DNA of 57,029 nucleotides. Origin: Campylobacterales bacterium (GTDB taxonomy: Bacteria > Campylobacterota > Campylobacteria > Campylobacterales > Sulfurimonadaceae). Every line of letters starts with the position of its first letter. Position 1 is the first letter of the stretch. The notes beneath the pieces were generated by a model. The model was not told the DNA's origin. It was given only the letters and a program-made list of their open reading frames with translations, and did no database searches. This document shows positions 25,149-38,739 of this stretch, piece by piece. The translations under genes were made by a program, and so were the position numbers. The stretch covers positions 1 to 57,029 of the forward strand of contig JAPLGM010000009.1 of NCBI GenBank assembly GCA_026390165.1, written 5' to 3'.

Positions 25149-25191
25149 AGAATGATAGAATAGTTCAATAATAAATTGTAAGGAGGTGATG

Positions 25192-25551
25192 GTGGCTAAT
25201 ATATTAATTGTCGATGATTCAAGTTTAATTAGAAGTGTTGCTACATCAGCAGCAAAAGAGGCAGGACATAATCCTATCATTGCTACTAACGGTAAAGAGG
25301 GGTTAGATATGATAGCACTTCATCAAATTGACATTATTTTTTCGGATGTCAATATGCCGATTATGGGTGGACTTGAGATGGTTGAAAATATAAAAGCGAA
25401 TCCCAACTACAAATTCATCCCTATTATTATGCTCACTACCGAGAGTGATGAAACATTAAAAGCAAAAGGGAAGGCGTTGGGCGTTAAGGCTTGGATGTTA
25501 AAACCTTTTAATAAAGAAAAATTCTTTACGGCACTTCAAAAACTACTTTAA
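25192..25551 (+). CDS. cheY: CheY-type single-domain response regulator
   Basis: About 119 residues, a single receiver domain: acidic pair in LIVDDSS, phospho-acceptor Asp52 in FSDVNMPIMGG, LTTES with the conserved Thr, and Lys104 in MLKPF. The likely start is the GTG at 25192, because AGGAGG (25181-25186) stands 5 bases before it; ATG at 25189 would leave only 2 bases. It is the first gene of the chemotaxis operon and is presumably phosphorylated by the CheA two genes downstream. Whether it acts on the flagellar switch or on another output is not visible. Confidence 0.92.
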   Translation: MANILIVDDSSLIRSVATSAAKEAGHNPIIATNGKEGLDMIALHQIDIIFSDVNMPIMGGLEMVENIKANPNYKFIPIIMLTTESDETLKAKGKALGVKAWMLKPFNKEKFFTALQKLL

Positions 25552-25566
25552 CAAAAGTGAGACAGT

Positions 25567-25839
25567 ATGAATACGGTCGACTATGAAAAACTGACTATTT
25601 ATGAAGTTGAGTCATTTCATAAAATTCTATTGCAGTGGTGTGCTAAAGCCCAAACGGTTTTAGTACTTGATTTTGAGCGTGTGCAAAAGATAGATATTGC
25701 CGCGATACAGCTTTTACTCTCAGCACAAAAAACGTGCCATAAAAAATCCTCTGAACTTATTTTGGAAAATTTATCATCATATTTACGCGAAACATTACGT
25801 GTAGCTGGTTGTGAAACGCTATTTAAAGGGTTAACATGA
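25567..25839 (+). CDS. STAS-domain protein in chemotaxis operon
   Basis: A 90-residue anti-sigma-factor-antagonist-like fold: TVLVLDFERVQKIDIAAIQLLLSAQK, then LILENLSSYLRETLRVAGCETLF. In classical STAS antagonists a phosphorylatable Ser/Thr follows the ID motif. Here the sequence is IDIAAI with no Ser/Thr, so phospho-switching is unlikely. It sits between cheY and cheA, and its stop overlaps the cheA start (ATGA). STAS genes recur in this class of chemotaxis operon; their role is unknown. No anti-sigma kinase is present. Confidence 0.85.
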   Translation: MNTVDYEKLTIYEVESFHKILLQWCAKAQTVLVLDFERVQKIDIAAIQLLLSAQKTCHKKSSELILENLSSYLRETLRVAGCETLFKGLT

Positions 25840-27971
25840 CAGAAGAACTTCGACTTTTTTTAGAAGATAGTGATGAACAATTAGGCTTTATGGAAGCCTC
25901 CTTGGTAAATATGCAAGAGGAGGGGGTAAATGAAGAGGATATAGGGGCTTTGTTTCGAGCAATGCATACCATCAAAGGGACTGCCGGCATGTTTGGTTTT
26001 GATGATGTGGTAGCGTTTGCCCACATTGCAGAAAATTTGCTCTCTGAGGTGAGATCGTATAAAGTTCCATTAACACCTGAAATGATCAACCTCTTTTTAC
26101 TGTGCAAAGATCACACCGAAACACTAATCGATACCGCAGTGGATCAAAAGCCTGTTAGTGATGAATTGCGAAAAGCCAATGATGACTTAGTGGCACAGCT
26201 TCTTACGTTTACCCCTGGCAGCTTCAAGGCTCACTCTCAGGGAGATAAAGACTCCGTAACCAATACATCAAGAGTAGAAATAGCGCAAGAGAAAAACCAA
26301 AATACCCTTTGGCATATCAGTCTTGGATTAAAACCAGACTTTTTTAATACGGGGATGGATGTCTTACATCTGATCTCTTTCTTAGACGGGTTGGGTACGG
26401 TTACTAAAAAAGCTATTTTTACCGAAAACATCCCCCTTTTAGAAAATTATAATCCTATCGAAGCGTATATCGGATTTGAAGTGCAACTGGATACTTTGAG
26501 TGATGAGGTGGCAATCGAAGAGGTGTTTGAATTTGTAGCTGATGATATCGAACTTCAGATATTTAATGTGACGGATAAAGAGGAACTTTTACGTTGGATT
26601 GAGAACGTGGAAAATAAGCAAAATAGGGTGAAATTTTTAATCTCTAATGGTTTTTTTGATAAAACTGATTTTGTAACTGTTCAAGAGGAGAGAGTGATCG
26701 CTCCTGTGGTTACCGCTTCTGCTCCTACAATAACCCCTGCTAAAATTCACGAAAAAATAGAGGAAATCTCTTTTGGACAAGATGAATCGAAATTAATTTC
26801 TAAAAAAGAGCCCCATAAAAGCTTCTCATTGCGCGTTGACTCCAGTAAGATAGACCAGCTTATCAATCAAATGTCTGAGATGGTTATCGCAAATGCCAAG
26901 ATTGCACAACGGGCAGATAAGCTTGATGACACAGAACTCAGTGAATCGACAACGATTATGAGTGAAATGCTCGAAGAGGTACGATCGAGTGTTATGAATA
27001 TCCGAATGGTACAAGTGGGAGACAGTTTTGCAAAATTCCGAAGAATCGTAGGGGATGTTGCCAAAAAACTGGGTAAAGAGATTGACTTTATTATTAAGGG
27101 GGGGGAAACTGAGCTTGACAAAATGGTTGTTGAGAAAATTTCTGATCCTATTATGCACATGCTCAGAAACTCGGTTGATCATGGTATTGAACTCCCTGCC
27201 CAGAGAAGAGCTATTGGAAAATCGGATAGCGGAACCGTTACCCTGAGTGCCTATCCCGATGCGGGGACGATCGTTATCAAAATAGTCGATGATGGTAAAG
27301 GGTTGGACAAAGAGAAAATTTTGGCTCAAGCTATAGCCAATGGAACTATCCCTCACAATCAAAATTTAACGGATAAGGAGATATTCAATCTTATTTTTGC
27401 CGCAGGCTTAACAACCGCAGATCAGGTCTCCGATATTTCAGGTCGTGGTGTGGGGATGGATGTTGTTAAACGAAATATTGAGGAGTTGCGCGGTACGGTT
27501 GAAATTGATTCCATAAAAGGGGAGGGTTCCACATTTACCATAAGACTACCGCTAACTTTAGCGATAATAGATGGCTTTTTAATTCAATCGGGAGATACCA
27601 AGTATATTATCCCCTTGGAAATGATACAAGAGTGTATAGAACTGAGTCCTGCCTACAAAAAGCAAATGAAGGGGAATCATTTTATTAATTTAAGAGATTC
27701 TATCTTACCACTTTTGGATATTCGTACCTATTTTGATGAGTCTGAAAGTAAGAGTCAACGTGAAAATGTGGTGGTTATCCGATACGGAGAGTACAAAATG
27801 GGTCTTCAGGTCGATGAGCTTTACGGCGAGTTTCAAACGGTCATAAAACCATTGGGTGAAGTATTTAGAAATGTCCCAGGGATTAGTGGCGGAACCGTTC
27901 TTGGCAGTGGCGAGATTGCCCTTATCTTTGATATTCCAAAATTAATGGAATATAAAATCAAAAACAGCTAG
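25836..27971 (+). CDS. cheA: Chemotaxis histidine kinase CheA
   Basis: 711 residues. The N-terminal HPt (P1) domain has His44 in MHTIKGTAGMFGF. A region of about 150-300 may be a regulator-binding (P2-like) domain but is not clearly recognised. The dimerisation domain starts near 330 (RVDSSKIDQLINQMSEMVI). The ATPase domain shows MLRNSVDHGIE, VDDGKGLD and GRGVGMDVV. The C-terminal CheW-like domain is at about 570-705. There is no C-terminal receiver, unlike the main flagellar CheA of many Campylobacterota, which fits a second, separate chemosensory system. Confidence 0.95.
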   Translation: MTEELRLFLEDSDEQLGFMEASLVNMQEEGVNEEDIGALFRAMHTIKGTAGMFGFDDVVAFAHIAENLLSEVRSYKVPLTPEMINLFLLCKDHTETLIDTAVDQKPVSDELRKANDDLVAQLLTFTPGSFKAHSQGDKDSVTNTSRVEIAQEKNQNTLWHISLGLKPDFFNTGMDVLHLISFLDGLGTVTKKAIFTENIPLLENYNPIEAYIGFEVQLDTLSDEVAIEEVFEFVADDIELQIFNVTDKEELLRWIENVENKQNRVKFLISNGFFDKTDFVTVQEERVIAPVVTASAPTITPAKIHEKIEEISFGQDESKLISKKEPHKSFSLRVDSSKIDQLINQMSEMVIANAKIAQRADKLDDTELSESTTIMSEMLEEVRSSVMNIRMVQVGDSFAKFRRIVGDVAKKLGKEIDFIIKGGETELDKMVVEKISDPIMHMLRNSVDHGIELPAQRRAIGKSDSGTVTLSAYPDAGTIVIKIVDDGKGLDKEKILAQAIANGTIPHNQNLTDKEIFNLIFAAGLTTADQVSDISGRGVGMDVVKRNIEELRGTVEIDSIKGEGSTFTIRLPLTLAIIDGFLIQSGDTKYIIPLEMIQECIELSPAYKKQMKGNHFINLRDSILPLLDIRTYFDESESKSQRENVVVIRYGEYKMGLQVDELYGEFQTVIKPLGEVFRNVPGISGGTVLGSGEIALIFDIPKLMEYKIKNS

Positions 27972-28002
27972 TTAAAAAAACACAACTAAAAAAGGACATA
28001 CA

Positions 28003-30529
28003 ATGGAAAGTGTCAACATAAATTTAAATTTAGCAGAATTCGGCATCAACGAATATGATGTTGCCAAATATATCCGCATGGGTCTTGATTGTGAAAAGAA
28101 TCTTGCAGCTTTCAGTAAAGAGGCAGTAATCACGCTCAATGAGATTTCTAGCGGTAGTTTAGGTGCTAGAATTGATGTAGCACGATATGAGGGTGTATAC
28201 AAAGAGGTGGCGAATTCTGTTAACAGTATTGCGGATATTTTTACAGGATTTATGAACAGTTTGCCGATCCCTGCTATCGCATTTGATAAAAATTTCACTA
28301 TTAAATGGGGAAATACTTTAGCGGAGACCATTACCAAAAGCGGTAAGAATGGGATGATAGGGACGAAATGTTATAACCAATTTCATGCCGATGATTGTAA
28401 CTCTGCAGCTTGTGCCTGTGATAAGGCGATGAGAACGGACAGTATGTGTGATCACGAGTGTCAGGCCAAACCGGTCGGTCTGACCCAAACATTGGATATC
28501 AAATATTTCGGTTTGCCGTTAAAAGACATGAATGGCTCTATCGTCGGTGCATTTGAATACATCCTAAATCAAACCGATGCCCAAGAGAAAGCCAGAGAAG
28601 TTGATAAAATTGTCTCCTACACCAACAATGAGATTAATACATTGCAAAACATTTTGGATAATGTGGCCAAAGGGGTATTAAATACCTACTACGTTCCGGT
28701 TCCAACACAAGATACTGCCTTGGTCGATGCCAACAAAACGTTTAGTGCGCTATCCGTCTATACAACCCGCACCATCGATAATCTCAAAAGCATGATTTCC
28801 AACTTTGAAATAGCCAGTACGGCAGTCACAGCCGGTGAACTATCAACCCGAGTGGATGGAAAAGGGCTGGAGGGTGGATACCAAATAATCGTAACAGCCG
28901 TTAATAACTTATTATCAGATGTTGAAGGGGCATTCCAAGAGGTAAATGTCAGTATGGAACGTCTCGTAGGCGGTAACTTTACCGATAAAATCACTAAAGA
29001 GTACAAAGGGGATTACGGCGTCAGTAAAAATGCGATCAATAACGTTGCCTCTAAAATGGGAACTGATGCTCTCGAACTTCGAAGCAGCCGCCGCAGGGGT
29101 ACAAGCAGGTATCTTAACCTCACGGGTTAAATCCGAAACTCTTCCGGGCGGATACGCTGCGATTATCGGTGCTGTTAATAACTTCATCGGCGATGTTGAA
29201 GGGGCATTCCAAGAGGTAAATGTCAGTATGGAACGTCTCGTAGGCGGTAACTTTACCGATAAAATCACTAAAGAGTACAAAGGGGATTACGGCGTCAGTA
29301 AAAATGCGATCAATAACGTTGCTACCGATAAAATCACTAAAGAGTACAAAGGGGATTACGGCGTCAGTAAAAATGCGATCAATAACGTTGCCTCTAAAAT
29401 GGAACTGATGCTCTTCAACTTCCAGACGGCAGGAGCAGCTGTTTCGGTTGGAGACTTGAAAATAGAAGTAAACAAAGAAGGTTTCGTTGGCGGATACCTC
29501 ACCATTATCAATGCTGTCAATAGCTTACTGCGTGATGTGGATGGTGCATTTGCCGATACTATCAATGGCTTAAAAGAGTTAGAAAGTGGTAACTTAACCT
29601 ATAGAATTATGAAAGAGTATAAAGGGGATTATGACGCAGTGAAGCAATCTGCAAATAATTTGGCTGCTCAGCTTGAAGATATGGTTTCTAAAATTAATGC
29701 TAGTGCAGCAGAGTTTACGATTGCTGCAGAAGGTGTCAGCTCTTCGTCTCAGGCCCTTTCTGCCGGTGCAACGCAGCAAGCAAGTTCTCTTGAAGAGACA
29801 AGTGCGGCACTTGAAGAGATGAGCGGAAGTGTTGCTGAATCGGCTAAAAATGCACAGCAAACCAATGAGATGGCAGAAGATGCAGCCAAAATGGCGATAG
29901 AGGGGGGTGCAGCGGTTACCAAAACCGTTGAAGCGATGCAGTCTATTAGTCAAAAAATCGGTATTATCGAAGATATCGTATATCAAACAAACCTCTTGGC
30001 ACTCAATGCAGCGATTGAAGCAGCGCGGGCGGGGGAACATGGTAAGGGGTTTGCCGTTGTTGCAGCAGAGGTACGGAAATTGGCAAAACGCTCTCAGATT
30101 GCTGCTCAGGAGATTTCTGAAACGGCGAGTCAAAGCGTGAAAGTAAGTGAGCTTGCCGGTAGGTTGATTGGTGATGTTGTACCAAAAATTCAAAATACAG
30201 CAAAACTGGTGAAAGATATCGCGAATGCGGCAAAAGAGCAAGATGTCGGTATCAGTCAAATATCAACGGCTATGACACAGCTCGATCAAGTAACGCAAAC
30301 AAACGCGGCATCGTCTCAAGAGATGGCAGCTGCTAGTGAAGAGCTTAGTTCACAAGCGAATAACTTAACACAAATGATGCAGTTCTTTAAGATTTCGGAT
30401 ACGAGAGGCGGAGGCACTGGTGGTTCTCAAAACACACTTGCACCAAGAAGAGGTACACAAGCACCAATAGCGGGTAAAGAGAAACATGCAGGCAGCGGGT
30501 TAGACTTACGAAATTTTGATCGTTATTAG
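28003..30529 (+). pseudogene. Soluble methyl-accepting chemoreceptor, frameshifted (PAS, repeated HAMP, signalling domain)
   Basis: With one base removed the frame encodes about 841 residues. It has no membrane segment, so it is a cytoplasmic receptor. A PAS domain at about 75-185 contains a cysteine-rich stretch (GTKCYNQFHADDC, AACACDK, MCDHEC). It is followed by at least four HAMP-like units (GxLxxRV ... GGYxxIIxAVNxL) and a signalling domain with [21 protein letters not shown] near 668. The frame breaks near 29058-29060, where GGG replaces the GG found in the parallel repeat at 29401-29402. Without correction the gene splits into 28003-29130 and a second frame through 30529. It may be a consensus error in repetitive DNA or a real mutation. 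It lies between cheA and cheW. Confidence 0.85.
28918..29391 (+). repeat. Exact internal repeats in the chemoreceptor gene
   Basis: 131 bases at 28918-29048 are identical to 29192-29322, an offset of 274 bases (91 codons plus one). In addition 29254-29322 and 29323-29391 are a perfect 69-base tandem duplication, in frame (23 codons, starting [10 protein letters not shown]). HAMP units repeat in such receptors, but nucleotide identity over this length implies very recent duplication, gene conversion or misassembly. Confidence 0.85.
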
Positions 30530-30537
30530 GGATTACT

Positions 30538-31038
30538 ATGAGTCATGAAGATGCGCATGAAAAGAGTGAAATAGGGCAAGACCAATACCTTCTATTTTAT
30601 GTAGGGGGTGATGTCTACGCGATCAAAGCGTTAAGCACAAGTGAGATTGTCGAATACACAACGATCACCAAAGTCCCTTTAATGCCCTCTTTTGTCAAGG
30701 GGGTAACCAATATCAGAGGCAATATTGTCCCTGTTATCGATTTGCGGGATCGTTTTAATCTTGGTCAAACAGAAGTTCAAGCAAAAACATCAATTGTTGT
30801 TATTAATTATAAGACAGAGAATGAGACGACTCAGCTTGGTATTATAATTGATGAAGTGTATGAAGTAGATGATATAAATAGCGATCAAATCAAAGATTCT
30901 CCGGCATTTGGTGCAAAAATCGATAAAAAATTTATATCGCATATGGGTAAGTATCAGGGGGATTATATCGCTATTTTGGATACGCAGGCCATTTTGAATA
31001 CGACTGAATTATCGAAGCTAGTAAAGGGGTGTGCATGA
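30538..31038 (+). CDS. cheW: Chemotaxis coupling protein CheW
   Basis: A 166-residue single CheW domain: YLLFYVGGDVYAIKALSTSEIVEYTTITKVP, then FVKGVTNIRGNIVPVIDLRDRF and LGIIIDEVYEV. It links receptors to CheA in signalling arrays. It starts 8 bases after the receptor gene, and its stop overlaps the cheV start (ATGA). Confidence 0.95.
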   Translation: MSHEDAHEKSEIGQDQYLLFYVGGDVYAIKALSTSEIVEYTTITKVPLMPSFVKGVTNIRGNIVPVIDLRDRFNLGQTEVQAKTSIVVINYKTENETTQLGIIIDEVYEVDDINSDQIKDSPAFGAKIDKKFISHMGKYQGDYIAILDTQAILNTTELSKLVKGCA

Positions 31039-32000
31039 ATGATTATGATGATGAGCTAGAAGATATTACGAAGTCGGGTTTTGATGATATTGAGGAAGAT
31101 GAAGATGAACTGGATATTATAAAACTCGTGAGTACCAATGCTAATGATACGAGTCAATATCTTATCTTTGTGGGAAGCGACGACCAATATTATGCAAAAA
31201 ATGTCTCTAAAATAGAAGAGTTGCTTGTTTATAAAGATTTGGATATGGTAAAAAATACAGGCGATGGACTCATCGTAGGTACTGCCGATATTCGCGGTAA
31301 TATGACATCGATTGTCAACTTTGACAAGTGGTTTGGTAATAAAGTTTTGGATGACAAAGAGTATGAGTTGATTATTTTGGCTCATTATGGTGGACACAGA
31401 ATGGGGATCGTCGTCAAAAGGGTAGAATATATTGTTAATATACCTGCTGAGACGATGTTTGACAACTCTGAAAACAATGATAAAACCTCTTTTATCACGA
31501 AAGTATTGGTTTCTGGAAAAGAAAAACTGTGCCTTATTTTTGATAGCGACAAATTGCTTTTAGATGTTTTTGATAAAATTGACAGCCAAAGTTTATCCCA
31601 TACGAAAGAGTTGAAGGCTATTAAAAATACAAATAAGAAAATTATTTTTGCCGATGACAGCCGTTTTATCCGTAAAATGGTGCAAGAGCTTTTCGAATCG
31701 TTAAATGTCAGTTATGAAATTTATGAAAATGGGAAAGCCCTTATAGAGGGGATTAAAGATATTCCTGTGGATGATATCGGATTGTTTATAACCGATTTAG
31801 AGATGCCTATTATGGGGGGTAGAGATGTTATCCGAATTATTAGAGAAAACAGAAATTATGCTTCTATAAAAATCATTGTACACACCAATATGTCCAATGA
31901 TAATATGGAAGATGAGTTGAAAAAAGCGGGTGCCAACGTTATAATTGGTAAGGTAAATATGCTTAAACTTGGTGAGGCGATTAAAGATTTGATTATTTAA
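31035..32000 (+). CDS. cheV: Chemotaxis coupling protein with receiver (CheV)
   Basis: About 321 residues from the ATG at 31035 (a GTG at 31029 is less likely because the ATG overlaps the cheW stop). An acidic N-terminus precedes a CheW-like domain (about 45-190: SQYLIFVGSDDQYYAKNVSKIEELL, VGTADIRGNMTSIVNFDKWF) and a C-terminal receiver with IIFADDSRF and phospho-acceptor Asp in LFITDLEMPIMGG. CheV couples receptors to CheA and takes phosphate for adaptation. Campylobacterota often have several. Confidence 0.92.
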   Translation: MNDYDDELEDITKSGFDDIEEDEDELDIIKLVSTNANDTSQYLIFVGSDDQYYAKNVSKIEELLVYKDLDMVKNTGDGLIVGTADIRGNMTSIVNFDKWFGNKVLDDKEYELIILAHYGGHRMGIVVKRVEYIVNIPAETMFDNSENNDKTSFITKVLVSGKEKLCLIFDSDKLLLDVFDKIDSQSLSHTKELKAIKNTNKKIIFADDSRFIRKMVQELFESLNVSYEIYENGKALIEGIKDIPVDDIGLFITDLEMPIMGGRDVIRIIRENRNYASIKIIVHTNMSNDNMEDELKKAGANVIIGKVNMLKLGEAIKDLII

Positions 32001-32008
32001 GGTAATAC

Positions 32009-32833
32009 ATGGCAACCCCAATATTAGAAGATGCTGAATTCCATGTTTTTCAAAAACTTATCTTTAAAGAGGCGGGGATTGATCTCAATGACAGCAAAAA
32101 ATTATTGGTGCAAAGCCGGTTATTAAAGCAGTTACTCACATATGGATTTGAAACGTATGCACAATATCTTCGTTTGGTACAGATCAACCAGCTTGAAAAA
32201 ATCGAAATGGTGAATCTTTTAACGACAAACGAAACCTATTTCTTTCGAGAAATAGAGCATTTTGAATTTATACAAAAAGAGCTATTGCCTGTTTATCCTA
32301 TTAAAACTAAATTTCGTGTTTGGAGTGCAGCGGCTTCTGTCGGGGCAGAGGCGTATAGCACGGCAATGCTTCTGGATACAATCCTCTTAAAAGCAAGCTG
32401 GGAAATTGTCGGTACGGATATAAATTCAGAGGTTATCAAAAAAGCAAGGGTAGGGCTTTACCCTGAAAGTTGGGTGGATAAAATTCCTTCCCATTTACGT
32501 AAAATGTACTGTTTGAAGGGGAGAGGTGAGAGTCAGGGGAAGTTTTTAATAGATCGATCCTTGATTCCTAATATGCGGTTTGAGCAAGCAAATTTACTAG
32601 AGTTATCCAATGATTTGGGAAAATTCGATTTAATATTTTTGCGCAATGTGCTGATCTATTTTGACAATGCGACGAAGCAAAAAGTAGTGGATGGTGTCAT
32701 AGACCATCTTGTCCCTGGAGGGTATTTTTTTATTTCTCATACTGAAAATTTAAATATGATAAATACAAATAGACTTGAGCAGGTTAAAACAGCAATATAT
32801 CGTAAAAAGGATAATCTTATTGAAAAAGAGTAA
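32009..32833 (+). CDS. cheR: Chemoreceptor glutamate methyltransferase CheR
   Basis: 274 residues. The N-terminal helical domain includes LLTTNETYFFREIEHFEFI, followed by the SAM-binding fold (VWSAAASVGAEAYSTAM, VGTDINSEVIKKA, LIFLRNVLIYFD). It methylates receptor glutamates using S-adenosylmethionine and is opposed by cheB further down. The last 14 bases overlap the TTG start proposed for the ParA-like gene. Confidence 0.95.
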   Translation: MATPILEDAEFHVFQKLIFKEAGIDLNDSKKLLVQSRLLKQLLTYGFETYAQYLRLVQINQLEKIEMVNLLTTNETYFFREIEHFEFIQKELLPVYPIKTKFRVWSAAASVGAEAYSTAMLLDTILLKASWEIVGTDINSEVIKKARVGLYPESWVDKIPSHLRKMYCLKGRGESQGKFLIDRSLIPNMRFEQANLLELSNDLGKFDLIFLRNVLIYFDNATKQKVVDGVIDHLVPGGYFFISHTENLNMINTNRLEQVKTAIYRKKDNLIEKE

Positions 32834-33650
32834 TTTGAAAATTGTGGTTGTTTCAAGTAAGGGTGGAGTAGGGAAAAGCACTATTTCAATGCAATTGGTT
32901 GCCCCTTTTTTATACGAGCAAAGTAATAAAGAACCGGTTTCTTTTTATGAGTTTGATGATGAAAACAGTGACTGCCTAAGTTATGGGGACAGTAAGCTGA
33001 CAAAAAGAAAAATAATGGAAGTCTCTTCCCCTATTTTACGGGAAGAGTTAACCGAGCTATTTGCAAAAGATGAAGCGGCCTGTATTGATATCGGTGGAAA
33101 TAAAACAACCACCATTGTTTTGGATGCCCTTAATGAAAGTGGAATGATCCATTTTGTTGACTTGGTTATCATCCCCCTTTTAGACGGTGAGCAAGATGGG
33201 ATTAATGCGGTCGTTGTTTATTCTATTTTAAAAGATATGAGACCCGATCTTAAATTTGTTTTTGTATTAAACAGAGCTAAAAATCACCGTTATATTGAGT
33301 ATCAGTTTGATAATTTTTTTGGAGATGTGAGGGGGATCTTTCAGAATAACAACTCGGTCAAAAATTGCGTATTTGATAATCATGATGATAATTATATTGT
33401 GATGTTGGATGATGATATTATCAAGTACAGCAGACGATTCGGACTCACTATCTATGAAATAGCCCATCACAATCAAGATTTTATTGCATTGCTAAAATTA
33501 AATATGAGTACGTTTAGCCATGAACAAGAGATAAAGTTAATTAGTTTTAAAAATTACATTAAAAAAGCATCCGATACCTATTATGAGGATGTATTAAAAT
33601 TGGGCTTTGATAAACTTAAATCTATTTTGGAGAGTACACATGATAACTAA
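32820..33650 (+). CDS. ParA/MinD-like ATPase in chemotaxis operon
   Basis: About 276 residues from TTG at 32820 (AAGGATAATCTTA precedes it); a longer frame from 32775 lies wholly inside cheR. The deviant Walker A motif KGGVGKST is present, and ACIDIGGNKTTT serves as the switch I/Walker A' region. VDLVIIPLLDGEQDG replaces the usual P-loop partner region and FVFVLNRAKNHRY the base-recognition part. ParA-like ATPases position chemosensory clusters in other bacteria (PpfA, ParC). A similar role for the soluble receptor cluster encoded here is inferred from position. No ParB-like partner is recognisable, but the next gene overlaps by 11 bases. Confidence 0.83.
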   Translation: MKKSNLKIVVVSSKGGVGKSTISMQLVAPFLYEQSNKEPVSFYEFDDENSDCLSYGDSKLTKRKIMEVSSPILREELTELFAKDEAACIDIGGNKTTTIVLDALNESGMIHFVDLVIIPLLDGEQDGINAVVVYSILKDMRPDLKFVFVLNRAKNHRYIEYQFDNFFGDVRGIFQNNNSVKNCVFDNHDDNYIVMLDDDIIKYSRRFGLTIYEIAHHNQDFIALLKLNMSTFSHEQEIKLISFKNYIKKASDTYYEDVLKLGFDKLKSILESTHDN

Positions 33651-34545
33651 ACTACATAGCCACTATTTACAATTTCTAGCTCAAAATTGTAATATTTTAT
33701 TGCTAAGCAATAAAAGCTACGAAGCCTTTAACAATGTACAAACTTTTTTTGCCAGCGGTTCCCAAAGAAATATGGAAGATGCTGAATTAGAGAATATTAA
33801 TATTACGTTGATGGAGAATAAGTTTGATATTGTTCTTTTGGATACAACAGATAATGTAGTCCAAGCTAAACGATTTCATAAGGCTTTGTCTCTCTACAGC
33901 GATCGTATTGTTGTCCTCAGTATTATAAATGAGCATATTGACAATAATGTTATTGATTTAATAAAAATAAGCGACAATATCCTGTTTGATACGTTCACTT
34001 TCGAAGAGTTAAAAGACAAATTGGTTCAAATTTTAAGTGTTTTTTACACGATTATCTCAATCGGTCGTCGGGAAGTCAATTTAAAACTCGGTTCATCCAA
34101 CGTCAATGTATTGGGCAGTTTTTTAGATTTTTATGAGGGGAGTTCTCTCTTTATTGTTGATGAACTTATTGAGCTCAATCAGCGATTAAAAGCGGGCGAA
34201 TTATCGAAAGAATTGCTTACCGAGATAGGTCAAAAGATTTTAGAAATTGGGGAGATATTTTCAAAACACACCTTACTTATTGGGGTATCGCCAACTTTTA
34301 AAGATTTTGGGAACTTTCTAATAGAGTTAGATTTTTCTACCCTTAAACCTAGCGGATTAAAAGGGTTTGATTATTTAAGTGACATCATCAATGATTGTAA
34401 CAAAAATTTAATGGATATGTTTGTGGATAGAATTTTTCAAGACATTCATCTTTTTGAATATTCATTGGAGAATAACATTGAGTTTATGAAAAATAAGTTA
34501 TTTTCTGATGAAACTGAAGATAACAGTAAATTGGATTTTTTTTAA
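33640..34545 (+). CDS. Uncharacterised chemotaxis-operon protein with DIH domain and LDFF tail
   Basis: About 301 residues from the ATG at 33640, overlapping the ParA-like gene by 11 bases and cheB by 1. The N-terminal 110 residues look receiver-like in pattern (NILLLSNKS, FDIVLLDTTDN, IVVLSII) but lack the usual acidic pair. The C-terminal half is predicted helical and ends with FQDIHLFEYSLENNIEFMK, an acidic linker and SKLDFF. This end resembles those of the proteins at 35596-37260 and 37261-38739. The FQDI element recalls the phosphatase helix of CheZ and the terminal peptide recalls its CheY-binding tail, so a CheY-phosphate-binding role is possible but unproven. I do not recognise a named family. 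Confidence 0.75.
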   Translation: MITKLHSHYLQFLAQNCNILLLSNKSYEAFNNVQTFFASGSQRNMEDAELENINITLMENKFDIVLLDTTDNVVQAKRFHKALSLYSDRIVVLSIINEHIDNNVIDLIKISDNILFDTFTFEELKDKLVQILSVFYTIISIGRREVNLKLGSSNVNVLGSFLDFYEGSSLFIVDELIELNQRLKAGELSKELLTEIGQKILEIGEIFSKHTLLIGVSPTFKDFGNFLIELDFSTLKPSGLKGFDYLSDIINDCNKNLMDMFVDRIFQDIHLFEYSLENNIEFMKNKLFSDETEDNSKLDFF

Positions 34546-35591
34546 TGATAAAAGTATTTGTAATTGATGACTCTGCGGTTGTACGAAGCGCTTTTAAAAG
34601 GATATTTGAAAAAGTAGCAGATATAGAGCTTATCGGTTCTGCCCCAAATCCGGTAGATGCTTTTAATATATTTAAAAAAGTTGGGTTGCCGGATGTTTTC
34701 ATATTGGATATTGAGATGCCAAAAATGGACGGATTGGAGTTTTTACAACTGATTAATCAGCAAAAACCTGTTCCCGTTATTATTTGCTCTACTATGGTGG
34801 GAACTGGCAGCAGCGCGGCGGTAGATGCCCTTCGCATGGGTGCTGTTGATATTGTTCATAAACCAAACGTCAATTTAGGAAAGTTTTTTGATGATGCAAC
34901 CGATGATTTTTTAGAGAAAGTGAGAGCCGCATCTCGGGCAAGAGTACATTTTAATTCTCATATTGCGACTAAAAAATATACGTTAGCTGATGATGAGTAT
35001 GGTAAAAATTCGGCGCTCCCCGCATCCAAAAAAATAGTGGCTATCGGTTCATCTACGGGTGGAGTTCAGGTTATAGAAGAGATTGTCCGTTATTTAAAGC
35101 CAAATCATCCCGCCATTGTCATAACCCAGCATATGCCAGCCGGATTTACAAAATCGTTTGCCGAGAGACTCGATTTTCTAGCCCCGTATTCGGATATTAG
35201 AGAAGCTTCGGAGGGGGATAAACTATTGCCGGGGCGGATCTTGATCGCACCCGGAGATCTCCATATGGAGGTAAAAAAATCAGGTTTTAGCTATGAAGTT
35301 ACACTAAAAGATTATCCGAGAGTCAGTTCCCATAAGCCCAGTGTTAATGTCCTTTTTGCTTCGATGGCAAAAGAGGTTGGCTCTCAAGGAGTAGGTATTA
35401 TCTTAACGGGAATGGGGGAAGACGGGGCAGCTAAGCTTTTAAGTATGAGAGAAGCCGGTGCCACAACCTATGCGCAGGAGGAGAGTTCCTGTACCGTGTA
35501 TGGAATGCCAAAAAAAGCGGTTGAATATGGTGCCGTTAAAATTTCTTTGTCTATATTTGAAATAGCCAATATGATCAATAATTTAAGGTAA
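34545..35591 (+). CDS. cheB: Chemotaxis methylesterase/glutamine deamidase CheB
   Basis: 348 residues. The N-terminal receiver has Asp55 in VFILDIEMPKMDG and a KP motif (VHKPNV). The C-terminal catalytic domain has the serine near 170 (AIGSSTGG), His196 (TQHMP) and Asp293 (GMGEDGA), the three catalytic residues. It removes methyl groups from receptors and is activated by CheA. Its presence beside cheR means this receptor system has full adaptation. Confidence 0.96.
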   Translation: MIKVFVIDDSAVVRSAFKRIFEKVADIELIGSAPNPVDAFNIFKKVGLPDVFILDIEMPKMDGLEFLQLINQQKPVPVIICSTMVGTGSSAAVDALRMGAVDIVHKPNVNLGKFFDDATDDFLEKVRAASRARVHFNSHIATKKYTLADDEYGKNSALPASKKIVAIGSSTGGVQVIEEIVRYLKPNHPAIVITQHMPAGFTKSFAERLDFLAPYSDIREASEGDKLLPGRILIAPGDLHMEVKKSGFSYEVTLKDYPRVSSHKPSVNVLFASMAKEVGSQGVGIILTGMGEDGAAKLLSMREAGATTYAQEESSCTVYGMPKKAVEYGAVKISLSIFEIANMINNLR

Positions 35592-35595
35592 CACA

Positions 35596-37260
35596 ATGAA
35601 AAATAATATTTTGCTATATACTGAAAATTCTTCTTTATTAATGGACCTTTTATCGGATGAGTTTAATATAAGTATAGCAAAATCAAAAGAAGAGATGCTT
35701 CATTTATTACAAGAGCACTCTTTTCAGCTTCTTATTATGTCCGGTGAATATATACTCAGAGGCGATACGTATGGGTACAAAAGCCTTCGTGATCATCCGA
35801 TATTTCACGATATCCCAGTTATCGCGTATAAAGAAATTGTTAATGACAATTTACTCACAAAACTCTATTCACTTAATATTAAAGGGTATATCGAATATCA
35901 CCCTACAAAAGAGAATTTACTAACTAGAATCAAGGATGTTTTACATAGGTCTAATCCCTATATAGGGATGCCAATAGACCGATTTATTAAAGCATTCATA
36001 CGATATGAAGAAGCAATCAATGATGTCTCTAATGTCGTTTATTTGAGCAACTATCTTATTGCGCACTATACGCTAGATAATAAGAAAGCTCAAGATATTA
36101 AAAATTCTATTATTCTTTTAGCGATTGCATTTAAGAAGAATAAGCTGGATAAAATTATTTGTTTTCTCCGTGATATATCACTATCACCCTATTTAGAAAG
36201 AATAATGAACAATTATAAAAATCCTCTATCTATAGATGAGTATATTATAGTGATTTCGCTACAGTATGGAAATTTAGATTATAATGATAAATACAAAATT
36301 GATGTGAATAGTTTAAATGATGAGATGGTTGCTGTTGCCAAAGAAGCGATGCAAAAAAGGAAAATTTATATCTCCTGCAGTCACGATATCTATGCTTTTT
36401 GGGAACGATTAGATGAAGTGCTTAATACGTATTCTAAACTTTCATTAGAAAATTATCATCTCTATCTCCATTATATTTTTAAAATTTTATACAAAGCTTT
36501 GGTCAATTATGGGGCTTTGGAAGCAGAGTTTGATAATTTATTTGAAGATGTTTTAAAGGTTGTTATCATTCCAAAAGGGTGCACGGATGCTAAGATGGGC
36601 GCGTGTATTGACTCTTTTGAGATCGAAAATAATAATGTTTCTTTTGAAAAAGTAACGATCGATGCAAAAATAGCTCTTTTGATTAATTTAAATAAAGTTA
36701 CGGATATCTTGCCGATCGCTCCTCCTAAGGAGAAAAAAATAGTTGATACCTCAATACTCCATTTAATGCACTATAAAGATGAATCAAAAATAAGTGCAGT
36801 TGATTTTTTAAAAGATTTTGAAATCGATAGTGATTTATTGGATGATTTGGCGGACAACGAAAGAGAAGCTAAAAGTTTTCTTTATTTTAAAGAAAGTTTA
36901 ACGCAAGAGATGCTTGAATTGGTTTATAGAACATACATAAAGTATACCCGTTTGATTAACAGTACTATAGTATTTGAAAACTTAGCCTATTCCATAGGGG
37001 CTCTTGCCGAGGTGATTGCTAAAGTCGATCTAGAGTCTCTTGATGAACAGAATCAAAAAATCTTAAAAGAGCATGTTATCGGAATTATTGACGATCTTGG
37101 CTCTTGGAGAAAACATATATTTATCATGCAAGATACACCAGATATTCATTATTTAGACGCTTCGCTTTTAGATAACTGTTCAGAGATAGAAGCTCTGATA
37201 AACCCACAAGTAAAAGAGAGTCAAGCTGAGGAAGACGAGAGTGATTTGGAGTTTTTTTAA
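35596..37260 (+). CDS. Uncharacterised protein: degenerate receiver, helical core, DIH domain and DLEFF tail
   Basis: 554 residues, last gene of the operon, 5 bases after cheB. Residues 1-115 follow the receiver pattern (NILLYTENSSLL; FQLLIMSGEYIL; DIPVIAYKE; YIEYHPT), but the acidic pair is gone and Ser stands at the phospho-acceptor position (about 49), so it is a pseudo-receiver. The centre is helical without recognised motifs; a cysteine-containing stretch GCTDAKMGACIDSFEIEN is conspicuous. From about 415 to the end it resembles the protein at 37261-38739: a helical region, SWRKHIFIMQDTPDIHYLDASL, an acidic linker and the terminal DLEFF. Function unknown; the operon position suggests signalling output or array organisation. 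Confidence 0.78.
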   Translation: MKNNILLYTENSSLLMDLLSDEFNISIAKSKEEMLHLLQEHSFQLLIMSGEYILRGDTYGYKSLRDHPIFHDIPVIAYKEIVNDNLLTKLYSLNIKGYIEYHPTKENLLTRIKDVLHRSNPYIGMPIDRFIKAFIRYEEAINDVSNVVYLSNYLIAHYTLDNKKAQDIKNSIILLAIAFKKNKLDKIICFLRDISLSPYLERIMNNYKNPLSIDEYIIVISLQYGNLDYNDKYKIDVNSLNDEMVAVAKEAMQKRKIYISCSHDIYAFWERLDEVLNTYSKLSLENYHLYLHYIFKILYKALVNYGALEAEFDNLFEDVLKVVIIPKGCTDAKMGACIDSFEIENNNVSFEKVTIDAKIALLINLNKVTDILPIAPPKEKKIVDTSILHLMHYKDESKISAVDFLKDFEIDSDLLDDLADNEREAKSFLYFKESLTQEMLELVYRTYIKYTRLINSTIVFENLAYSIGALAEVIAKVDLESLDEQNQKILKEHVIGIIDDLGSWRKHIFIMQDTPDIHYLDASLLDNCSEIEALINPQVKESQAEEDESDLEFF

Positions 37261-37278
37261 TTAAAAAAATTCCAAATC
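37243..37278. terminator. 36-base near-perfect palindrome at convergent stops
   Basis: The two convergent genes end at 37260 and 37261 with no gap. Both encode ...DLEFF-stop, and the codons used make the junction symmetrical: 17 of 18 pairs match around 37260.5. The hairpin ends in a run of T on either strand, so it can act as a bidirectional terminator while coding for both C-termini. Confidence 0.6.
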
Positions 37279-38739
37279 TTCTTCCACTTCATTGGATTCA
37301 GTTTGGGCACTATTTTGCTCAAATGAGTTTTTTAGCTCTAAAATAGTGTTATATAAAGAGCTATCTAAGTAATGGATATCTTCAGTGGTTTGTGTAATAA
37401 ATACGTGCTCTTTCCAGTTAATTAAATCATCAAGTATACTTTGCATTGCTGCTTTGATCATATATCCATTTGAATCAATATGCTCTTGCGATAACTCGTG
37501 TAAATACTTCGATGTCAATTCAACGGCATCGGCTAAATCAGAGAACTCAATAAGCCTAATGAGTTGATTTGCGTATAATTTAAATATAGCTGCTATCGTT
37601 TCCAGTGTTGAATGTTTTTGAGAATATTCGAACTCATACAGCTCGCTTTGTATATCAATCTCTAATTCGTTTAGCTCTTCGAGATCGTCTGCTATCGTGT
37701 CTCTAAGCGTTGTAATATAATTTGTGGCACTTATTTTATAGTTATGGGTGCGTCTTAACAGCATTTCATTTGTCTCAAGTGAAGTTTTTTCAAGAATTTT
37801 TTCAACTTTTTGTTTTTCTTCCTCGGGAGTAGTAAAAATATTTCTTGTTAAGAACTCTTCTAATATCTCTTTATTCGCTTTAAGTTTTTGTTTTTGATAC
37901 TCAATCATACGAATTTGTTTTACTTGAATCGTTATATCATTCAGCACTATAATATAACCTATTCCATCTACCGTTGGAATTTTAATTTCATGTTTGCGAG
38001 GCATATAGAAGAATGGGGTATTTTCATTTTTGAAAATTATTCTTTGCTCATTATCCGTATTATCCCGAATTTTTTTAAATGATATTTTTTCTCCATTATT
38101 AGATAAAAATATGGATTCAATTCTAGCAATATCATCGCCTATGGCCACTTCGAGATTCTTTTTTAGTAACATTTCTGTTAGTAATTCATTTAGATAGACT
38201 ATTTTTTGATTATTATCTACAACAAAAACAGGAGATGGCATACTTTGTAAAAAATATTGAGCTGTCTTTTTGACTGCTTTTGAGATTTTTTCATTTTGAA
38301 GTTTTATATGGTATTTTTTTGCATCTATTTTATTCTTTAGCTCTGAAAGCATATCGTATAGCGTAGTTATAACATTATCTTCATAAATAGGCTTAAGCAT
38401 ATAGTGGTTAACGCCATTACTGATTGCTCTAGTGAATTTATCAACATCAGTGAATCCAGAGATAATGCAAATGGGGATGTCACGAGATATTTCTCTGATT
38501 TTTTGTGTCATATCTAAGCCATCCATTCCAGGCATTTCGATATCGGTAAATACTATATCAATAGGTTTATTTTTAAAAATAGCTAGCCCTTCTAGGCCAT
38601 TGTCAGCACTGTAAACAGTATGGAAAAACTGTTTGAATACTAATTTCATACTATCTCTAATATCTTTTTCGTCTTCAACATACAGTACTGTGAACTCTCT
38701 GCCAAGCTCTTTTAATTTTAATAGTATTTGCCCATCCAT
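37261..38739 (-). CDS. Response regulator with PAS-like region, DIH domain and DLEFF tail
   Basis: 492 residues. An intact receiver (about 15-135) has LYVEDEKD, Asp66 in VFTDIEMPGMDG and LKPIY. A PAS-like region follows (about 165-285: SPVFVVDNNQKIVYLNELL; GYIIVLNDIT), then a coiled coil (about 290-345). The C-terminal 150 residues are helical and end with NWKEHVFITQTTEDIHYLDSSL, an acidic stretch and EEDLEFF. The last part resembles that of the convergent gene at 35596-37260. This gene is transcribed towards the chemotaxis operon and has its own promoter region. Receiver phosphorylation by the local CheA is plausible but not shown. Confidence 0.85.
   Translation of the reverse strand: MDGQILLKLKELGREFTVLYVEDEKDIRDSMKLVFKQFFHTVYSADNGLEGLAIFKNKPIDIVFTDIEMPGMDGLDMTQKIREISRDIPICIISGFTDVDKFTRAISNGVNHYMLKPIYEDNVITTLYDMLSELKNKIDAKKYHIKLQNEKISKAVKKTAQYFLQSMPSPVFVVDNNQKIVYLNELLTEMLLKKNLEVAIGDDIARIESIFLSNNGEKISFKKIRDNTDNEQRIIFKNENTPFFYMPRKHEIKIPTVDGIGYIIVLNDITIQVKQIRMIEYQKQKLKANKEILEEFLTRNIFTTPEEEKQKVEKILEKTSLETNEMLLRRTHNYKISATNYITTLRDTIADDLEELNELEIDIQSELYEFEYSQKHSTLETIAAIFKLYANQLIRLIEFSDLADAVELTSKYLHELSQEHIDSNGYMIKAAMQSILDDLINWKEHVFITQTTEDIHYLDSSLYNTILELKNSFEQNSAQTESNEVEEDLEFF

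Follow-up and report, generated by a model that had tools for sequence, protein, structure and literature searches.

Plant AHP6 and Pseudomonas FimL are HPt-like proteins that have no phospho-accepting histidine and modulate phosphorelays by docking. The proteins described here, which share a helical C-terminal domain with a D-I-H motif (the DIH domain or module), can be likened to these two by description, but are fused to receivers and carry a tail. CheZ, which removes phosphate, is built on a long helical hairpin and forms a dimeric four-helix bundle. The DIH module and the CheA P1/HPt domain (PF01627) are alike in predicted five-helix fold, register and chemotaxis context, whereas the phospho-His/Lys/Gly site is missing from the DIH module, which gives no Pfam Hpt match, and the conserved DIHYLD hinge and C-terminal tail of the module are absent from CheA P1. 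For the pentapeptides of the NWETF type, by which chemoreceptors tether CheR, the rule xZxxZ has been given, with an aromatic residue needed at position 2 (PMC7390727). CheO and ChePep are Campylobacterota-specific chemotaxis proteins, CheO being reported chiefly in host-associated genera and having no known domain (PMC9665402); likened by description only, they and the DIH family are lineage-specific additions to the chemosensory array. No description of the DIH domain was found in a partial coverage of the literature on Campylobacterota chemosensory classes, CheZ, CheX and CheO.

The window, by which the whole analysed stretch of 57,029 nucleotides from a Campylobacterales bacterium is meant, contains a chemosensory operon with genes for CheY (25186), a STAS-like protein, CheA, a chemoreceptor (in two frames), CheW, CheV, CheR, a ParA-like ATPase, protein A and CheB. 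Protein A and the two proteins that follow the operon, B and C, were the subject of the analysis, and genes B and C converge tail to tail. The relevant features are as follows.

25186..35591, forward strand: chemosensory operon holding A (Pfam)
33640..34545, forward strand: protein A, 301 aa, with a divergent predicted pseudo-HPt domain and the tail KLDFF
34105..34503, forward strand: predicted pseudo-HPt (CheA P1-like) domain of A, model residues 46-178 (AlphaFold2, pLDDT 83.0)
34528..34542, forward strand: tail KLDFF of A (from the sequence)
35596..37260, forward strand: protein B, 554 aa, with a C-terminal DIH domain and the tail DLEFF
36787..37212, forward strand: putative pseudo-HPt/DIH domain of B, by alignment to C, limits approximate
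37243..37257, forward strand: tail DLEFF of B (sequence, DNA pattern search)
37261..38739, reverse strand: protein C, 492 aa, with a receiver (18-126), a PAS-like region (about 163-274), a DIH domain and the tail DLEFF
37324..37707, reverse strand: predicted pseudo-HPt domain of C, model residues 43-170, i.e. protein residues 345-472 (AlphaFold2)
37264..37278, reverse strand: tail DLEFF of C (sequence, DNA pattern search)

A sequence-only reading of this stretch had proposed that the three proteins share one uncharacterised domain and one tail. The strings on which it relied are present where it had placed them: the C-termini read SKLDFF, SDLEFF and EEDLEFF, the segments FQDIHLFEYSL, PDIHYLDASL and EDIHYLDSSL precede the acidic linker, and W-(K/R)-x-H-(V/I)-F-I occurs in two of the three (WRKHIFI in B and WKEHVFI in C). 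The common region is larger than a motif, comprising about 150 residues plus the tail, and BLASTP matches, all C-terminal, connected B with C (31% identity over 159 residues, E=7e-17), A with C (E=1.4e-4 over 209 residues) and A with B (E=0.008). The resemblance is beyond chance and the domains are homologous, with A as the outlier both in score and in motif (DIHLFE versus DIHYLD, and no W-x-x-H-x-F-I). As had also been claimed, the domain is uncharacterised in that no Pfam or NCBIfam family covers it. Upstream of it, no Pfam match was obtained for the N-terminal two thirds of B and no Pfam receiver match for the N-terminal region of A, a faint receiver-like trace being visible in the ortholog of A only; as receivers, the N-termini of A and B gave weak traces and no significant match.

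When the genome was searched with C and the proteins were read, at least six further copies of the family were found, bringing the total for this single genome to nine or more. These paralogs are listed below by locus.

L014: 475 aa, tail DMEFF
L015: 459 aa, tail EMEFF
L016: 323 aa, tail AIEFF
L017: 496 aa, tail FELF
L013: 441 aa, tail FEFF, motif degenerate (SIDFMD)
L130: 349 aa, tail DIDFF, motif very degenerate

With a family profile, homologs were recovered in 18 of 200 Campylobacteria genomes, distributed over 10 of 47 genera. A separate scan, run on species genomes, retained 80 loci and confirmed 100 relatives; nearly all of the loci bear the names of Sulfuricurvum, Sulfurimonas, Sulfurospirillum or further Campylobacterota. 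DIH proteins also lie, with a different CheA type, on contigs titled as other phyla (L088, labelled Sulfurivirga, and L023, labelled Desulfurellales), which may reflect transfer or mislabelled metagenome-assembled genomes. The original observation was a true one, and the proteins belong to a real, undescribed Campylobacterota family.

The tail conserved at the C-terminus is [LMI]-E-[FL]-F. Among 84 scanned members the last residue was F in 82 and E stood at position -3 in 77; the pattern by which these members were selected did not include the tail. The invariance of the motif among scan members is partly due to selection, since the scan demanded Qx[AT]xDIHY[LI]D; the 30 distinct members found by the profile survey, which had no motif requirement, form a motif-unbiased set. 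In this set the tail was kept in 25 members, and Asp152 was found in 28, His154 in 29, Asp157 in 29 and Trp140 in 28, with Gln148 in only 18. A search of the 2.6 Mb genome with the DNA pattern [DE]-hydrophobic-[DE]-[FL]-F-stop gave six matches, all six of which end family proteins. Conservation of the terminal FF, the lack of which would have refuted the sequence-only reading, is strict among the relatives of B and C, but does not extend to A: its one ortholog recovered at full length (L038:2771-3679) has the motif DIK and ends in LEYFND. Tail and motif tend to be lost together: the tail was retained in 97 of 100 members with a canonical motif and in 8 of 15 with a degenerate one (Fisher p=1.4e-5 before kinship correction, an optimistic value as the members are related). 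Since tail loss accompanies degeneration of the motif, hinge and tail are read as one functional unit.

A receiver domain begins 59 of 73 full-length relatives, as it does C, and the other domains encountered were PAS, one protoglobin and one EAL. That the family travels with chemotaxis genes was borne out, many members being encoded in chemotaxis operons, where they adjoin CheY-CheW-receptor-CheA-CheR or follow CheA-CheR-HATPase-(153-158 aa CheD-like)-CheB; several (L016, L061, L078) are located outside such operons. Locus L038 keeps the order of the window, CheW-CheV-CheR-A-CheB-B, without the ParA-like gene. In the window, this gene (32775-33650) lies within the chemotaxis operon, overlaps cheR and A, and encodes a ParA/MinD-like ATPase that resembles the array-positioning ATPases ParC and PpfA. 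At three related loci (L019:4754-5406, L052:981-2069 and L086:3-701), a further DIH protein is encoded beside cheB and/or immediately upstream of B, where the window has no such gene.

The module of C was modelled with AlphaFold2 from 76 sequences (pLDDT 83.8, pTM 0.76), which gave predicted helices at residues 44-71, 74-92, 95-113, 116-146 and 155-180, with DIH located in the gap or hinge that separates the last helix, E, from helix D. Foldseek alone returned nothing significant for this model, with no match at E<0.001. After VIA realignment of the Foldseek candidates, CheA P1 occupied ranks 1-6 (Z 12.4-14.2 over 103-131 residues; best match Z 14.2, over 122 residues), followed by designed four-helix bundles at Z 9.9-11.9. 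For the domain of A, which was predicted separately, CheA P1 occupied ranks 1-7 (Z 9.9-11.1), with the first clearly unrelated row at 8.7. The CheA P1 matches of both models span all five helices, and the two predicted domains show the same fold rather than unrelated ones; the models rest on overlapping rows of the family alignment, and middling Z values are easily obtained with helical bundles.

On the sequence level, a search of the family profile against 177,635 PDB sequences was topped by two designed proteins, 6fes and 2lch/3u3b (E=0.0018 and 0.0024), which we take to be redesigns of the CheA P1 domain of Thermotoga, an assumption with which the string LVHTMK agrees. HHalign of the DIH profile against local HPt profiles was not significant (best P 0.006, probability 6%), with the register right, and against P1 alone gave a spurious short match. 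Whole CheA proteins did not rise above noise among 720 neighbouring ORFs searched with the DIH profile, and Pfam Hpt was not among the families listed for the 76 members, nor was it found in A, B or C. Taken together, the models and the weak sequence evidence suggest that the DIH module probably has a P1-type fold. The other reading of these data, a dimerisation helix bundle with a generic partner-binding tail that matches P1 merely through a common four-helix arrangement, draws on the non-significant HHalign and Foldseek results; it appears rather unlikely, as CheA P1 tops the rows of both models, with five helices aligned and a single register.

By structure offset, hand alignment and profile alignment alike, the phospho-histidine of P1 falls on module residue 86. 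This position is variable, being His in 1 of 76 and 1 of 30 members, and for this reason the module is considered a pseudo-HPt. Helix B is weakly conserved (0.36), whereas values of 0.65-0.78 are seen where helix D ends, in the hinge, where helix E starts and in the tail, which suggests that the module probably transfers no phosphate and binds through a new face together with the tail. CheA or a receiver would be the likeliest partner, since in chemotaxis operons the module is found behind receivers and since it imitates P1. The sequence-only reading had considered the three to be receiver-binding proteins; judging from the models this is possible, because the predicted HPt-like fold is one that docks on receivers. 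The poor conservation of helix B, the classical receiver-docking face, speaks against receiver binding of the ordinary HPt type.

A possible explanation, which we favour with somewhat less than even confidence, is that A, B and C belong to a family of sensor-gated adaptors, the pseudo-HPt output module of which docks on a chemosensory partner. The output module would consist of the five-helix CheA P1 fold with its phospho-accepting histidine lost, the D-I-H-Y-L-D hinge that joins helices D and E and is nearly invariant, an acidic linker and the [LMI]-E-[FL]-F tail. This module would be exposed or hidden by the input part, which takes different forms (a receiver, a receiver with PAS or with other domains, in one case a protoglobin, and degenerate or unassigned N-termini). 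Once exposed, the module might dock on a conserved partner in the chemosensory apparatus through two surfaces, the hinge with the face of helix E and the tail, and the docked module might compete with or position receivers or the genuine CheA P1, so that it adjusts the flow of phosphate but carries none itself. Given a P1-type fold, a docking or decoy role in chemosensing has about an even chance. A broader reading is more speculative and rather unlikely: an undescribed class of pseudo-HPt modules may plug many cytoplasmic sensors into the arrays by mimicking CheA P1, via the DIH hinge and a universal tail, and would thereby add to receptors and CheV an input route that needs no phosphate. What was found is an output domain that is conserved but unannotated, has a strict motif at its C-terminus, is present in at least nine copies in one genome and sits inside chemotaxis operons. 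If it is a mimic of CheA P1, bacteria would have in it a parallel to the plant pseudo-HPt inhibitors, and it would account for the way in which Campylobacterota with several chemosensory systems feed them receiver and PAS inputs.

For the tail, the main rival to such docking is that it is a CheR/CheB docking pentapeptide of the NWETF class, placed on soluble regulators to recruit or titrate the adaptation enzymes. DIH tails share with the receptor tethers the x-hydrophobic-x-x-F spacing on an acidic flexible end, chemoreceptors of related clusters end in DDLKEF and the adjacent HATPase proteins in [DE]MKEF, and the receptor of the window ends in NFDRY beside a CheR with the GxGxxxG beta-subdomain loop of the Salmonella type. 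However, position 2 of the last five residues, for which an aromatic is required (PMC7390727), is aromatic in 6 of 84 members and L/I/M/V in 78, the carriers are soluble regulators, and the DIH tail is constant beside both CheR types, whereas the receptor tails vary with CheR type. The tether reading is held to be unlikely.

CheZ-like phosphatase activity, in which the DIH helix would insert a catalytic residue into CheY-P while the tail tethers CheY, had been suggested from the sequence and is now regarded as highly improbable. The gross order is alike (helices, D-I-H, acidic linker, hydrophobic terminus), the genuine Campylobacterota CheZ (PF04344) contains QDIH and A contains FQDIH, and a glutamine, Gln148, precedes Asp152 by four residues in 74 of 76 members. 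The latter drops to 18 of 30 in members found without motif selection, however, and the catalytic D-x-x-x-Q of CheZ (QDIHRQ in 30 of 30) is absent, its glutamine position (i+4) being L/I in 76 of 76 DIH members. The tails also differ ([LMI]E[FL]F versus the DIEALIxSLGKK type of CheZ), HHalign with 30 CheZ sequences gave a probability of 1.1%, and DIH lies at a helix hinge in the model. The predicted architecture of the DIH module, a compact five-helix bundle in its monomer model, is a different one; CheZ chains were absent among the Foldseek matches listed, which excludes nothing. The claim that no recognisable CheZ accompanies the system holds for the operon but not for the genome, which encodes an ordinary CheZ candidate with the motif QDIHRQ on another contig (L009:1492-2199), adjoining a U32 peptidase in the cheZ-trhP order reported for F3 in the phylum (PMC9321776). 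With E 0.0016 this protein does not reach the Pfam threshold for CheZ, so that default annotation would miss it. The likeness between FQDIH (A) and QDIH (CheZ) is best put down to coincidence, and the CheZ interpretation should be dropped, as an annotation that is tempting but very probably wrong; A, B and C would more probably act by docking to the chemotaxis machinery than by taking phosphate off in the manner of CheZ. Least likely of all is a working HPt with its phospho-acceptor moved to the His of DIH, for although His and Asp157 are each kept in 29 of 30 unbiased members and both models are P1-like, the ortholog of A reads DIK and the L013 paralog SIDFMD, the site lies at the predicted hinge and not on helix B, and the HPt Lys/Gly partners are missing.

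Several observations concern the receptors and their neighbours. The chemoreceptor of the window is split into overlapping frames (28003-29130 and 29030-30529) inside repeated HAMP_2 blocks with a 43-residue repeat, owing to a frameshift or an assembly error in the tandem repeats. Receptor tails vary by cluster (30500-30529 in the window, the L038 receptor fragment, and loci L047-L096): NFDRY and DFDRY, which fit the published xZxxZ rule, occur beside a CheR of the Salmonella type, and DDLKEF in related clusters whose CheR is without the GxGxxxG loop. Finally, HATPase proteins of approximately 300 aa (L031:1273-2202, L047:1319-2212 and L051:1358-2245) end in MKEF, like receptors, and have no recognisable phospho-accepting His box (KNxFNNP versus HExxNP); they are possibly pseudo-kinases with the same docking tail.
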